Program-made: the position numbers and the translations under genes
NCBI RefSeq assembly: GCF_009729555.1
Contig: NZ_WODC01000007.1
Coordinates: 1 to 64,000, forward strand
From: Pseudodesulfovibrio alkaliphilus
GTDB lineage: Bacteria > Desulfobacterota > Desulfovibrionia > Desulfovibrionales > Desulfovibrionaceae
Direction of reading: 5' to 3'
Length of the DNA: 64,000 bases
Part shown: piece by piece, positions 26,535 through 31,852 of the stretch
Layout of the letters: each line of letters starts with the position of its first letter
Numbering within the stretch: position 1 is the first letter of the stretch
The notes under the pieces: generated by a model
What the model was told of the DNA's origin: nothing
Database searches by the model: none
What the model saw: only the letters and a program-made list of their open reading frames with translations

Positions 26535-26564
26535 TTGACACTTCCCGACGGCTGGCCTTACTGT
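26535..26564 (+). promoter_or_regulatory. Promoter of the three-kinase operon
   Basis: A perfect -35 TTGACA (26535-26540), 18-base spacer, and TACTGT (26559-26564). It lies between cutA and the pfkB-family gene and indicates that the kinases have their own transcript. Confidence 0.5.
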
Positions 26565-26599
26565 CCCGGTCATCGAACCAGCCGTCTTCAGGAGGAAGA

Positions 26600-27535
26600 A
26601 TGCAAATTTACATTTCCGGCTCTCTCGCCTTTGACCGCATCATGACCTTTCCAGACAAGTTCTCCAATCATATCCTGCCTGACAAGCTCCATATTCTCAA
26701 TGTCTGCTTTCTGGTTGACGGTTTGGAGGAGAAATTCGGCGGCACGGGAGGCAACATCGCCTACAACCTGTCGCTTTTGGGCGAGAAGCCGGTTCTGCTC
26801 AGTCAGGTGGGCAGGGATTTCGCCGCATACGATACCTGGCTGCAGGAGCATGGCATTGGTGCGGAGGGGATCCGCACCGTGGAGCAGGAGTTTACCGCCG
26901 GGGCGTACATCACTACGGACCAGGCGGACAATCAGATCACCGGCTTCAATCCTGGAGCCATGAAGTATCCCTGCCAGTTCGACATGACCACCATCGATTC
27001 CGCCGATGCCCTGGGCATCATCTCCCCCGGCAACCTCGGGGATATGATGGATCACCCCCGCTACTACCGGGAGAATGCCATTCCCTTTATTTTCGATCCG
27101 GGCCAGCAGATACCCGCCTTCAGCGGTGAACAACTGGTCCAGGCGCTTGACGGCGCGGAGATTTTGATCACCAACGACTACGAGTTGGAGATGATCCTCA
27201 AGGCCACCGGAATGACCAAGGCCGAGGTGGTGGAGCGCGTGGCCTACCTGATCACCACCTTGGGCGAGAAGGGGTCGGTGGTCAACTGCAAGGGTCAGGA
27301 GACCCATGTGTCGGCTGTGCCCGTAAGCTCTGTGGTCGATCCCACCGGGGCCGGCGATGCCTTCCGTGCCGGGTTGCTCAAGGGGCTGGCCATGGAAAAG
27401 ACCGTGGCCGAGGCGGCCCGGCTCGGTTCGGTGTGCGCGGCATACGCTGTGGAGCACAAGGGCACACAGGAGCACCGCTTCTCCTTCCAGAAATTCACCA
27501 AGCGCTACGAGGCGAGCTTCGGACCTTTGGAATAG
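26600..27535 (+). CDS. PfkB-family (ribokinase-like) sugar or nucleoside kinase
   Basis: The 311-residue kinase phosphorylates a hydroxymethyl group of a sugar or nucleoside with ATP. It has the N-terminal substrate lid start (ISGSLAFDRIM, KFGGTGGNIAYNLSLLG) and the C-terminal PfkB signature DPTGAGDAFRAGLL with the catalytic Asp, about residues 247-260. The sequence is closest in style to adenosine kinase-like members, but the substrate cannot be read from the sequence. Strong AGGAGG before ATG. First gene of an operon with an APH-type and an adenylylsulfate-kinase-like gene. Confidence 0.85.
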   Translation: MQIYISGSLAFDRIMTFPDKFSNHILPDKLHILNVCFLVDGLEEKFGGTGGNIAYNLSLLGEKPVLLSQVGRDFAAYDTWLQEHGIGAEGIRTVEQEFTAGAYITTDQADNQITGFNPGAMKYPCQFDMTTIDSADALGIISPGNLGDMMDHPRYYRENAIPFIFDPGQQIPAFSGEQLVQALDGAEILITNDYELEMILKATGMTKAEVVERVAYLITTLGEKGSVVNCKGQETHVSAVPVSSVVDPTGAGDAFRAGLLKGLAMEKTVAEAARLGSVCAAYAVEHKGTQEHRFSFQKFTKRYEASFGPLE

Positions 27536-27598
27536 GTCCTGCGTCGCCTCGGCCAAGGCCCGATCCGGGCTCAGACAGGCCCAAGGTAAGGAGGCGTC

Positions 27599-28690
27599 AT
27601 GATTCGGCTGGAAATCGCCAACATCGAAACGTATCTCAAGAGGGTCTACGGCGATGACGCCAAGCTGCTGGCCGCAGGCGACATCGGTAGCCTGGATGCC
27701 CAGGGCATGAAGGGGTTCGGCTACGGAAAACCCCTGCTGATCCGTTTCATGGCGGGCGGTGAGATCCGCGAGGCCGTATTGTCCATCATGAAGGGGGACA
27801 AGTATGGCCACCAGTTCTATTGGGATCGGGCGGCTATCCTGATGTTTCAGCATGAGACCTCGGCGCGGATGGAGCGTCATGTCCGTCCCATGGGCCTGGG
27901 CTACGTGGACGACGACAACGCCCTTATACCAGTGGACCGGCCAAGGGAGTTCTTCATTGTCAACGAGAAGCTGGAGGGACACGACTACTTTCTGGATCTT
28001 GAGCGAATCCGCTTGGGCGACTTTCGCGATTCGGACCTGGAGCTGGCCCGGGACTACGCCCGCTGGTTGGCTCGGGTGCATTCGCGCAAGCTTGACGATG
28101 CACCGCTGTATCATCGACGCATCCGCAATTTGATAGGGTCGAGCGAGTGCATCCTGGGTATGATCGACGAGGCGTATCCGCACCCATATCCGGCCTTTGA
28201 GGATGCCCGGTTCATTGCCCTGGAGAAGCGGTTGGTGGATTGGCGCTGGAAGCTTCGTGGCTACGCCCATCGGCTCAGTGCGGTGCATGGCGATTTCCAT
28301 CCTTGGAACGTATTGGTCACGGAGCAAGGCGAGTTCTCGGTTCTTGACCGCAGCCGGGGTGAGTGGGGCGAGCCCGGCGGCGATCTGGCCACCATGGCCA
28401 TCAACTATCTGTTGTGGAGTCTCTATGGCCACGACAGACTCGCCGGACCCTTTGAGCGCCTCTACCGCGTCTATTTCGGCGAATACCTGGAGCGAACCGG
28501 CGATGCCGAGGTGCTGGAGGTGCTGGCGCCGTTCTTTGTCTTTCGCGCCCTGGTCATCGCCTCGCCCCAGTGGTACCCGGACCATCCGGCCAGTGTGCGA
28601 CAGGGGCTCTTCAATCTCATGGTCAACGTGCTTGAGGACGATGTGTTCGATTGGGAAAACATCGACAAGTACATGGAGCGGGGAGCGTGA
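27599..28690 (+). CDS. APH-type phosphotransferase (small-molecule kinase)
   Basis: The 363-residue protein has the aminoglycoside phosphotransferase/choline kinase fold. The catalytic loop is VHGDFHPWN (229-237), with the base D232, and the metal-binding Asp is D250 in LDRSRGEWGEPGGD. The N-lobe is divergent. Chromosomal members of this fold phosphorylate sugars, amino acids or antibiotics; the context with two other kinases points to metabolism rather than resistance. AAGGAGG lies six bases before ATG. The stop TGA overlaps the GTG of the next gene. Confidence 0.75.
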   Translation: MIRLEIANIETYLKRVYGDDAKLLAAGDIGSLDAQGMKGFGYGKPLLIRFMAGGEIREAVLSIMKGDKYGHQFYWDRAAILMFQHETSARMERHVRPMGLGYVDDDNALIPVDRPREFFIVNEKLEGHDYFLDLERIRLGDFRDSDLELARDYARWLARVHSRKLDDAPLYHRRIRNLIGSSECILGMIDEAYPHPYPAFEDARFIALEKRLVDWRWKLRGYAHRLSAVHGDFHPWNVLVTEQGEFSVLDRSRGEWGEPGGDLATMAINYLLWSLYGHDRLAGPFERLYRVYFGEYLERTGDAEVLEVLAPFFVFRALVIASPQWYPDHPASVRQGLFNLMVNVLEDDVFDWENIDKYMERGA

Positions 28691-29271
28691 AAGGGCAGGT
28701 GCCTGGATTCGCGGTCTGGTTCGTGGGGTTGCCGGGCAGCGGCAAGAGCGCTCTTGCCAGGGGGGTGCGCGACCACCTGCTCGGGCGGGGGATGGAGACG
28801 GTGCTGCTTCAGATGGACGAGCGGAGAAAGACCTATTTCCCCGAGCCGAAGTACACGGCGCAGGAGCGCGAGGCGGCCTATGCCATGTTTGTGGACGAGG
28901 CCGTGGAACTGGCTTGGCAGGGGCGCAACGTGCTCATGGACGGTTCGGCTCACAAGGTGGTCATGCGCGCCAGGGCCAGAGAAAGCATCCCGCGGTTCGC
29001 CGAGGTCTTTGTGCGCTGCGAACTGGATGAGGCCATCCGGCGCGAGGCCGGACGCCCCGAGGGACTCGTGGCTGCCGATCTTTACCGCAGGGCGCTGCGC
29101 CGTCAACAAACGGGCGAAGCGTGTCCGGGGTTGGGCGAGGTCATCGGTGTGGACGTGCCCTTTGAGGAAGACCCGGATGCGGAATTCACCATCGACAATA
29201 CCCGGCTGACCCGCGAACAGACTCTGGAAAAGGTTTTGCACTTTCTGGACACCTGGATCGACAGTGCTTAA
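28687..29271 (+). CDS. Adenylylsulfate-kinase-like P-loop kinase
   Basis: A 194-residue P-loop kinase. Walker A is GLPGSGKS (14-21), and the C-terminal part GVDVPFEEDPDAEFTIDN resembles the end of CysC. In true APS kinase the residues after Walker A include DGDN; here the position reads MDERRKTYFPEP, so the APS site is not conserved and another substrate is likely. GTG start at 28687 overlaps the previous stop (GTGA), with GGGGA upstream. Last gene of the three-kinase operon. Confidence 0.7.
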   Translation: MKGQVPGFAVWFVGLPGSGKSALARGVRDHLLGRGMETVLLQMDERRKTYFPEPKYTAQEREAAYAMFVDEAVELAWQGRNVLMDGSAHKVVMRARARESIPRFAEVFVRCELDEAIRREAGRPEGLVAADLYRRALRRQQTGEACPGLGEVIGVDVPFEEDPDAEFTIDNTRLTREQTLEKVLHFLDTWIDSA

Positions 29272-29313
29272 GGCTCTGATCGCCGCGACGCATTTTTCTC
29301 TTCAACCCGCAAT

Positions 29314-29332
29314 TGCCCGGTGACACCGGGCA
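29314..29332 (+). repeat. Hairpin in the miaB leader
   Basis: Perfect 7-bp arms TGCCCGG/CCGGGCA with loop TGACA, 12 bases before the miaB start and next to its AGGA. It may be the end of the kinase transcript or a leader element; there is no T run. Confidence 0.4.
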
Positions 29333-29344
29333 GGATTTGATTGC

Positions 29345-31189: not shown

Positions 31190-31852
31190 ATGATCGATCT
31201 GCACACGCACACGGTCTTCAGCGACGGCGAACTCATTCCGGCGGAGCTTGTTCGCAGGGCCGAGGTTGTCGGCTACAAGGCTCTGTGCATGACCGACCAC
31301 GCCGATGAGAGTACTCTCTACTTCACTGTCGAGAACATCCTGCGTTTCGTGAAGCGACACGGATATTTCTACGACATCACCATTCTGGCAGGGGTGGAGT
31401 TGACGCATATTCCGCCGCCACTCATCGGCGAGATGACCCTCAAGGCCCGTGAGGCCGGGGCGCAGATAGTGGTCATGCACGGCGAGACGCCTGTTGAGCC
31501 CGTTGCTCCGGGCACCAATCTGGCGGCCATTGAGGCCGGGGTGGACATCCTGGCGCATCCCGGACTGATCACCGAGGAAGAGGTGGCCCTGGCCGCCGAA
31601 AAGGGCGTGGCCCTTGAGATCACCACTCGGGGTGGTCACAGTTACACCAACGGGCATGTGGCCGCGCTGGCCCGTCGGCTCGGCGCCAGACTGGTGGTCA
31701 ACAATGATGCACATTCGCCAAGGGATCTCGTCTCCAGAGAGTTGCGCAGAACCATCGCCCTGGGCGCGGGGCTGACGACCGAGGAATACCGCCAGACCGA
31801 GGCCAACGCCCGCGAGATAGTTGAGCGTTGTCTGCGCCGAACGGCCAGATGA
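31190..31852 (+). CDS. PHP-domain metal-dependent phosphoesterase
   Basis: The 220-residue protein shows the PHP metal ligands in order: DLHTHTVFSDGE (4-15), TDHADE, AGVELTH, LAHPG and NNDAHSPRD. Family members hydrolyse phosphate mono- or diesters (histidinol phosphate phosphatase, YciV-type exonuclease). The exact substrate is not clear. It follows DUF151 by seven bases. Confidence 0.85.
   Translation: MIDLHTHTVFSDGELIPAELVRRAEVVGYKALCMTDHADESTLYFTVENILRFVKRHGYFYDITILAGVELTHIPPPLIGEMTLKAREAGAQIVVMHGETPVEPVAPGTNLAAIEAGVDILAHPGLITEEEVALAAEKGVALEITTRGGHSYTNGHVAALARRLGARLVVNNDAHSPRDLVSRELRRTIALGAGLTTEEYRQTEANAREIVERCLRRTAR

Follow-up and report, generated by a model that had tools for sequence, protein, structure and literature searches.

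Two neighboring kinase genes in Pseudodesulfovibrio alkaliphilus, one for a kinase of the APH fold (here APH) and one for an APS-kinase-like P-loop kinase (APK), are an obligate co-inherited unit, and the PfkB-family kinase gene upstream is separable from them. Genomic context in many genomes tentatively places this module in the metabolism of SAH, adenosine, MTA and 5'-deoxyadenosine. It is plausible, though short of probable, that APH and APK phosphorylate, one after the other, a ribosyl metabolite that originates from SAM by-products.

Organization of the kinase locus

The window (the whole 64,000-nucleotide stretch that was analyzed) contains three consecutive forward-strand kinase genes of three different folds, as the original prediction had stated; all three open reading frames are present and catalytically plausible. 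The first (26600-27535) encodes a 311-residue PfkB-family protein (PF00294, E 6e-43, 147.7 bits). The second (27599-28690) encodes the 363-residue APH, predicted to be a small-molecule kinase (PF01636, E 3e-11), and the third (28687-29271) encodes APK, with 194 residues from a GTG start at 28687 (PF01583, E 2e-12, obtained with a longer TTG-start version of the reading frame). The predicted four-base overlap of the last two genes is found as GTGA at 28687-28690, provided that the GTG start is correct.

A probable promoter precedes the PfkB gene on the same strand (26535-26564). The perfect -35 element of the original prediction is present as TTGACA at 26535-26540, followed by an 18-nt spacer and TACTGT at 26559-26564; this -10 candidate has only 3 of 6 consensus matches, and a strict sigma-70 scan reported no promoter at 26535-26564. 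The pattern TTGAC(A/T), 17-18 nt, TACnnT is retained in all seven same-genus loci compared while the surrounding DNA has diverged, so the promoter is probably real; it was absent from the eighth sequence compared, from another genus. A terminator-like hairpin between APK and miaB (29313-29333, forward strand) was found by pattern scan only, and is weak evidence because four such sites were found in the region when 2.5 were expected in shuffled sequence. That the genes and their order recur across many genomes indicates that the locus is not a product of chance.

Two of the three kinases are inherited together

In a survey of 120 genomes of the order, APH was found in 62, and APK was found in all 62 of these, side by side with APH in 53 and unlinked from it in 9. 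The only genome with APK and no APH was 66% complete. Matches of about 180 bits or more were called APK, together with a 122-bit fragment in one genome (G051) lying just behind its APH pieces; among the matches listed, those of CysC type lay at about 130 bits or less. The APH loci themselves were retrieved for 30 of the 62 genomes. Elsewhere in the phylum, a relative of APH over its full length (E ≤ 1e-60) was present in 14 of 297 genomes, 13 of which had an APK reading frame within the 1.5-kb flanks of APH. APK was also found in 32 of 34 genomes chosen mainly for APK not adjoining APH, a set that includes four (L083, L093, L132 and L151) in which APK does sit at the APH locus; there was none in G411 and G421, and only pieces in G412 and G438. 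The trees of the two proteins were correlated (mirror-tree r 0.815, uncorrected for the species tree), and the pair spans Bacteria and Archaea. The loci are related, so these counts do not represent independent events.

The full trio was contiguous in 25 of the 120 order genomes, which bears out the expectation that it would be conserved beyond this strain. PfkB, however, was present in 43 of the 62 genomes with APH and in 35 of the 58 without (Fisher p 0.34), and is therefore not tied to APH and APK. The suggestion of one dedicated pathway for all three kinases thus did not hold: only APH and APK are obligate partners.

The PfkB protein is probably a nucleoside kinase with adenosine as its likely substrate. 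Its full-length phmmer matches to a Burkholderia thailandensis structure (3b1n, E 3e-62) and to entries named adenosine kinase, such as that of Mycobacterium tuberculosis (4o1g, E 6e-59), of the order of 1e-59 to 1e-62, and its conserved DPGQQ and GAGD motifs make it like the adenosine and nucleoside kinases, with no decisive difference seen in the sequence. It fell under every NCBIfam equivalog cut-off (122.5 bits versus 450 for NF041164). The possibility that each gene has an unrelated, already assigned substrate, which the original prediction had allowed for, may apply to PfkB, with a nucleoside such as adenosine, while the other two are co-inherited.

Properties of the APH-fold kinase

APH is predicted to be an intact kinase with a 5-methylthioribose-kinase-like fold. 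The nearest folds among the matches listed were PsiK (Z 22.8) and the MTR kinases (Z 21.9-22.5), the next family scoring 20.5; what is shared is a superfamily fold, which is no proof of function. The HGDxHxxN motif and D250 were kept in 122 of 122 relatives. Positions 250-252 read D-R-S, with R251 and S252 each in 121 of the 122 and alanine at 252 in one. R316 was invariant, with G, A, C or S as the usual next residue, at a position that may correspond to the twin-arginine, MTR-binding motif of MTR kinases.

The comparison with MtnK/MTR kinase and with DrdK, a 5-deoxyribose kinase described as an MTR kinase relative (in the available part of PMC6079011), showed both likenesses and differences. 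APH shares with them the APH-type fold (Z about 22, 303-320 residues aligned), the HGD catalytic loop and a genomic company of SAM by-product enzymes. However, identity to MTR kinases was 11-12%, and the DXE and GXGNXN motifs that define those enzymes (PMC2194712, available part) were not found: the Mg-binding DXE was absent from the alignment of 122 relatives, and the GXGNXN loop reads K-G-F-G-Y-G-K-P, with no asparagine among the four residues seen most often at positions 42 and 44. The predicted metal-binding Asn237 is as in APH(3') and PKA and unlike MTR kinases, going by the same part of PMC2194712. In addition, APH occurs alongside MtnA and MTA phosphorylase rather than replacing them. 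MtnA was found in 113 of the 120 order genomes, with or without APH, and among the 34 in which MTA phosphorylase scored strongly (at least 260 bits), APH was also present in 28; an absent MTR or 5-deoxyribose kinase is thus too simple an answer for APH. A role as a plain kinase of either type was rejected on these distributions and on the missing motifs.

Two parallels are known. In WNK kinases, the ATP-binding lysine lies in the glycine-rich loop instead of strand beta-3, as it may in APH. Many bacteria have fused APH-AAA_33 proteins, in which an APH domain works together with a P-loop kinase; those are single proteins, and we noticed no such fused gene among the loci read here.

Relation of APK to APS kinase

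APK is APS-kinase-like, as predicted, but the curated cut-off, its clade and its key residues all set it apart from the APS kinases. Its best fold match among those listed was the APS kinase 7yq1 (Z 24.1, rmsd 1.8 over 172 residues), and it shares with CysC the fold, the P-loop, and catalytic and phosphate-binding residues, among them D44, R47, R61 and R119, these four kept in 96 of 96 APK sequences. Its score on TIGR00455 was 53.6 bits, versus a cut-off of 138.7 (101.4 for the relative L080), whereas the true APS kinase of the same genome scored 212 bits, and the APK clade stood apart from CysC in the tree (SH-aLRT 96).

The residues that differ from CysC include positions which we take to be APS contacts in APS kinase, namely those of the DGD motif, the stacking aromatic and Asn64. 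In a comparison with 17 CysC sequences, of which only L170 was checked against the family model and L230 is a long branch, D42-G43 was present in 17 of 17 and not among the commonest APK residues, with loss of the DGD motif; Asn64 was in 16 of 17 and in 0 of 96 APK; Phe56 was replaced by tyrosine in 96 of 96; the second aromatic position was valine in 91 of 96; and positions 85-87 were DA(T/S) where CysC has A-x-I. The loss of Asn64 and of the second aromatic suggests that adenine binding may be lost in APK. A true APS kinase was thus rejected as a candidate, the genome having a separate one, and the annotation 'adenylylsulfate kinase' is probably wrong for this clade.

Genomic neighbors of the kinase pair

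The original prediction noted no biosynthetic enzyme with the kinases. This is correct for the window, and in the window's own genome SAHH is on another contig, but elsewhere the neighbors of the kinases include SAHH, an SAH/5'-deoxyadenosine-deaminase-type amidohydrolase, MTA phosphorylase, MtnA, PRPP synthase and an IMPase-family phosphatase. Among the best 80 of 223 confirmed archaeal and bacterial loci, 14 of which have APH near a contig end, a profile count gave 26 with SAHH no more than 3 kb from APH. The arrangements in which SAHH recurs number at least three. APH often comes after SAHH in archaea and Bipolaricaulota. In the phylum of Methanothrix (148 genomes, 45 with APH, SAHH coordinates listed for 43), the two were within 2 kb in 18 of the 43 genomes with both located, on the same strand in 18 of 18; five of the 148 genomes were already among the loci, two of them within the 18. 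In two Asgard loci (L093 and L108), the pair is flanked by MTA phosphorylase, MtnA, PfkB and PRPP synthase.

In the bacterial genus g28, APK is parted from APH and diverges from a cluster of ArsR-methyltransferase, SAHH and MetK genes; the DNA between APK and the cluster carries a SahR-like palindrome. This resembles the SahR regulon described for delta-proteobacteria (PMC4239095, available part), and a SahR-type site is also found upstream of the ArsR-methyltransferase/SAHH genes of the window's genome. The window itself had no match to the 20-bp palindrome with up to three mismatches, in contrast to that regulon, for which the available part of PMC4239095 names no such kinases, and SahR control of the window operon was rejected.

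RNA enzymes also recur as neighbors, and raise the possibility, which we consider unlikely, that the two kinases act on RNA, with a tRNA or a group bound to it as the substrate, and that SAHH nearby reflects only the heavy SAM use of RNA methyltransferases. In Desulfovibrionales, miaB adjoins the kinases; a poly(A) polymerase/tRNA nucleotidyltransferase-type gene was a neighbor in 6 of 21 loci compared; the neighbor is a ThiI/NFACT-R protein in Nitrospirae, while Methanothrix has a TIGR01177-type methyltransferase; an RsmE-type gene is beside APK in g28, and EndA is two genes from APK in Methanothrix. APK is also related in fold to O-phosphoseryl-tRNA kinase, L-seryl-tRNA(Sec) kinase being a weak relative (Z 16.6; E 1e-4 for the window protein, 2e-13 for L080). 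However, the APS kinases fit APK far better (Z 20-24 among the matches listed), APH has the fold of a small-molecule kinase and no RNA-binding domain in Pfam, and the RNA gene is a different one in each lineage, compared with SAHH in its several arrangements. Where archaeal APK is unlinked from APH, no partner was repeated beyond single lineages (in Methanothrix, a type II GAPDH-like gene and EndA).

About as improbable is that APK adds a 3'-phosphate to some adenosine nucleotide that is not APS, a step reversed by the IMPase-family neighbor in the manner of CysC and CysQ, while APH prepares the 5' end. The APS-kinase fold with its retained aspartate and arginines and the adenosine-related neighbors SAHH and PfkB are consistent with this, as are the 11 of the best 80 of 223 loci that have an IMPase-family gene no more than 1.5 kb away, and L220, where APK is apart from APH and has such a gene next to it. 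Yet this neighbor is closest to the archaeal fructose-bisphosphatase/inositol-phosphatase family (175 bits, cut-off 264) rather than to CysQ (31.7 bits), and the asparagine and second aromatic of APS kinase are replaced in APK.

A route from ribose to PRPP is more improbable still. PhnN is known to make PRPP, and here the target of APH would be C1 of ribose 5-phosphate; alternatively, PfkB and APH together would make ribose 1,5-bisphosphate. In either case APK would produce PRPP as PhnN does. PRPP synthase and MtnA in the two Asgard loci, and sub-cut-off matches of PfkB to ribose-1-phosphate kinases, point in this direction, but PRPP synthase was near the pair only in those two of the best 80 of 223 loci, and PfkB aligns best with nucleoside kinases and is missing from 19 of the 62 pair genomes. 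Equally improbable is that housekeeping kinases with no relation to one another simply share an operon, APH and APK merely traveling together. This would suit the independence of PfkB and the differing neighbors between lineages, but co-occurrence in 62 of 62 order genomes, 9 of them with the genes unlinked, and in 32 of 34 genomes elsewhere would be hard to account for unless the two had a joint function.

Proposed function

In the proposed SAM by-product pathway, APH would phosphorylate, with ATP, a hydroxyl on a ribosyl metabolite from the by-product nucleosides, Asp232 of the HGD loop serving as the base. APK would bind the phosphorylated product through R47, R61 and R119 and add the second phosphate with Asp44 as the base, modeled on APS kinase, which itself phosphorylates a phosphorylated nucleoside. 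PfkB would turn the adenosine formed by SAHH into AMP, sharing the operon where convenient. Co-inheritance, gene order, folds, catalytic motifs and context are what was observed; the common pathway, the order of steps and the ribosyl substrate are deduced. The missing MTR kinase motifs, the distribution of MtnA and MTA phosphorylase, SAHH on another contig, the lack of a SahR-type site in the window, the RNA-enzyme neighbors of other lineages, and the 54 of the best 80 of 223 loci without SAHH within 3 kb all count against this role.

No account of the kinase pair was found in the open-licence PubMed Central papers searched, in keeping with the original statement that no described pathway with this set was known to its author. 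It is conceivable, though rather doubtful, that the recycling of SAM by-products has an undescribed branch of two phosphorylation steps, formed by the pair and common to sulfate reducers, Nitrospirae, Methylomirabilota, Bipolaricaulota, methanogenic and methane-oxidizing archaea, Bathyarchaeota and Asgard archaea, in which the ATP-binding lysine of APH has moved from strand beta-3 to the glycine-rich loop and which ends in a ribosyl compound with two phosphates that is off current metabolic maps.

SAM by-products act as inhibitors of both methyltransferases and radical-SAM enzymes. To our knowledge their clearance is therefore required in every cell, and the routes in anaerobes are only partly known. 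If the substrate is instead RNA or a nucleotide, a function would still be gained for families now labeled 'phosphotransferase' and 'adenylylsulfate kinase'. For the gap in anaerobe SAM by-product metabolism, the co-inherited pair, with apparently intact active sites and SAHH as a recurring neighbor, offers two concrete genes to assay.

Gene layout and promoter

Open reading frame and profile checks placed the three kinase genes where the original prediction had them, all on the forward strand: the PfkB-family gene at 26600-27535, the APH-fold gene (APH) at 27599-28690, and the APS-kinase-like gene (APK), with a GTG start, at 28687-29271. PfkB and APH are separated by 63 bases, and the overlap that had been reported for the last two genes is present, with the bases GTGA shared. 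In the promoter proposed upstream of PfkB the -35 is perfect and the -10 poor, and a strict promoter scan of the region did not accept the site; the motif TTGAC(A/T)-17/18-TACnnT was nevertheless kept in all seven same-genus loci compared. The trio is preceded by cutA (CutA1 profile) and followed by miaB (score above the TIGR01574 cut-off). A PHP-domain protein at 31190-31852 scored above the PRK06361 'histidinol phosphate phosphatase domain' cut-off; its gene is flanked by a bifunctional-nuclease-domain gene and a tolQ/tolR-like cluster (tol names by eye).

APH and APK are inherited together

APH was found in 62 of 120 genomes of the Desulfovibrionales, a count that includes three fragmentary matches, and every one of these 62 also encoded APK, which was directly downstream of APH in 53. 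The only genome with APK and without APH, G072, is 66% complete. PfkB was present in 78 of the 120 genomes (E <= 1e-60), at similar frequency with APH (43/62) and without it (35/58; Fisher p 0.34); of the 43 genomes having both, 30 have it immediately before APH, and the contiguous trio occurred in 25/120. Because APK accompanied APH in all cases and PfkB was independent of APH, selection acts on APH and APK as a unit, and PfkB is a frequent companion rather than a member of the three-kinase pathway originally proposed. In a sample of 297 genomes of the Desulfobacterota, full-length relatives of APH (E <= 1e-60) turned up in 14 genomes outside the order, and in 13 of these an APK open reading frame lies in the APH flanks; the remaining out-of-order matches were fragments or weak (best non-fragment E 6e-7).

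The APH alignment was used for a pattern scan of 84,980 species genomes; 223 relatives were confirmed, and the best 80 of them were kept. According to their record titles, these came from Methanothrix, Methanoperedens, ANME-1, ANME-2, Bathyarchaeota, Jordarchaeia, and Freyarchaeota among the Archaea, and from Bipolaricaulota, Nitrospirae, Methylomirabilota, Desulfobacteraceae, and Desulfovibrionales among the Bacteria, though single placements may be wrong because most are metagenome bins. Within the best 80 loci, APK was less than 400 bases from APH in 40 and less than 5 kb away in 47. Whole-genome searches of 34 genomes from these loci found APK in 32, the exceptions being G411 and G421. One contig titled Candidatus Nitrosotalea (L111) has thiolase and HMG-CoA synthase neighbours, as do ANME-1 loci L091, L094, and L100, and is probably misbinned.

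Predicted activities of the three kinases

The window PfkB aligned over its full length with the solved structure 3b1n from B. thailandensis (E 3e-62), reported to be a nucleoside kinase, and with entries named adenosine kinase, beginning with 4o1g (E 6e-59), the M. tuberculosis enzyme. Alignment with solved relatives showed that the DPGQQ and GAGD motifs are retained. No NCBIfam equivalog cut-off was reached by this protein. Judging from these relatives, it is a nucleoside kinase, with adenosine the probable substrate.

The predicted APH model (mean pLDDT 88.6) was nearest to PsiK and the 5-methylthioribose (MTR) kinases (Z 21.9-22.8, rmsd 3.7-4.3 over 302-320 residues), followed by Rv3168 (Z 20.5). 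HGD-x-H-x-x-N, D250, D262, and R316 were invariant in 122 relatives. Position 62, which the alignment indicates is the usual beta-3 lysine site, was not lysine in 119 of the 122, and the same 119 carry Lys38 in the glycine-rich loop (codon 27710-27712 in the window); the three without Lys38 (L041, L043, L044) carry Lys62. In these 119 sequences the ATP-binding lysine seems to have left strand beta-3 for the glycine-rich loop, resembling the WNK kinases, in which this lysine is relocated.

The APK model (pLDDT 94.9) has the APS-kinase fold (7yq1, Z 24.1). In a phylogenetic tree, 96 APK and 17 CysC-type sequences fell on opposite sides of a single branch (SH-aLRT 96). D44, R47, R61, and R119 were retained in all 96, but Tyr56 replaces Phe, Tyr65 is present, Asn64 is absent, and D85 occurs in 93 and Val152 in 91 of the 96. 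These kept and changed residues, the separate branch, and a true APS kinase elsewhere in the window's genome (212 bits, above cut-off) indicate that the acceptor of APK is probably a phosphorylated compound other than APS.

Genes adjoining the pair

S-adenosylhomocysteine hydrolase (SAHH), identified in L083 by a score above the TIGR00936 cut-off, was less than 400 bases from APH in 23 of the best 80 of the 223 loci and less than 3 kb away in 26. In Methanothrix, Methanoperedens, and Bipolaricaulota it precedes APH on the same strand, and in several Bathyarchaeota it is divergent. To get round best-hit selection bias, a sample of 148 genomes was taken from the phylum of a Methanothrix genome. 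APH was found in 45, of which 43 also gave a position for SAHH; APH and SAHH were less than 2 kb apart in 18 of the 43, always on the same strand, against about 0.1 of 43 by our own estimate of chance. SAHH is nearly universal in this phylum (145/148), so the signal is its adjacency to APH, not its presence.

SAHH was less than 1.5 kb from APK in six of seven genomes of the bacterial genus g28. In L157 and L158, the two of these six loci read far enough for gene order, MetK, SAHH, and an ArsR-type methyltransferase follow in that order, with APK on the opposite strand; L159 and L160 agree as far as the contig end. APH remains with PfkB in these genomes where assembled. The ArsR protein fits the published description of SahR, an ArsR-family protein that responds to SAH and regulates ahcY and metK in Desulfovibrio and related bacteria (PMC4239095). 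A SahR-like palindrome precedes the g28 ArsR-type gene, and none was found in a 64-kb scan of the window. A short, archaeal-like SAHH (about 420 aa, sharing 56-61% identity with the archaeal/Bipolaricaulota set) occurs in L157-L160, L162, L163, and L166-L168; that of the window's genome is longer (510 aa, 41% identical). The short form in some Desulfovibrionales is possibly a gene replacement.

In Jordarchaeia locus L093, methylthioadenosine (MTA) phosphorylase, MtnA, and PRPP synthase exceeded curated cut-offs, and L108 has the same gene order by profile. Also among the best 80 of the 223 loci, an amidohydrolase of the SAH/5'-deoxyadenosine deaminase type, below cut-offs, was less than 4 kb away in seven and an IMPase-family gene less than 1.5 kb away in 11. 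In Methylomirabilota L127 and L153 the pair adjoins universal-stress-type (label by eye) and radical-SAM genes, not SAHH.

Possible role of the pair

The genes that recur beside the pair suggest SAM by-products, and ribosyl compounds derived from them, as putative substrates. Against this reading, APH occurs alongside the established route for MTA (MtnA, MTA phosphorylase), no SAHH was less than 3 kb away in 54 of the best 80 of the 223 loci, and the neighbours in other lineages are RNA-processing genes. That APH fails on MTR-kinase motifs also counts against it. In the Desulfovibrionales sample, MtnA was found in 113/120 genomes and a strong MTA phosphorylase (at least 260 bits) in only 34. 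The RNA-processing neighbours would suit a pair of kinases acting on tRNA, which we consider unlikely; an adenine-nucleotide 3'-kinase is similarly doubtful, and a PRPP route is less likely still.

No account of the pair was found in the open-licence PubMed Central literature; the folds are known, and the conserved APH-APK combination is new. Since the pair is unparted in inheritance, both kinases are intact, and APK-type kinases act on phosphorylated acceptors, these data suggest that APH and APK would phosphorylate one compound in two successive steps.
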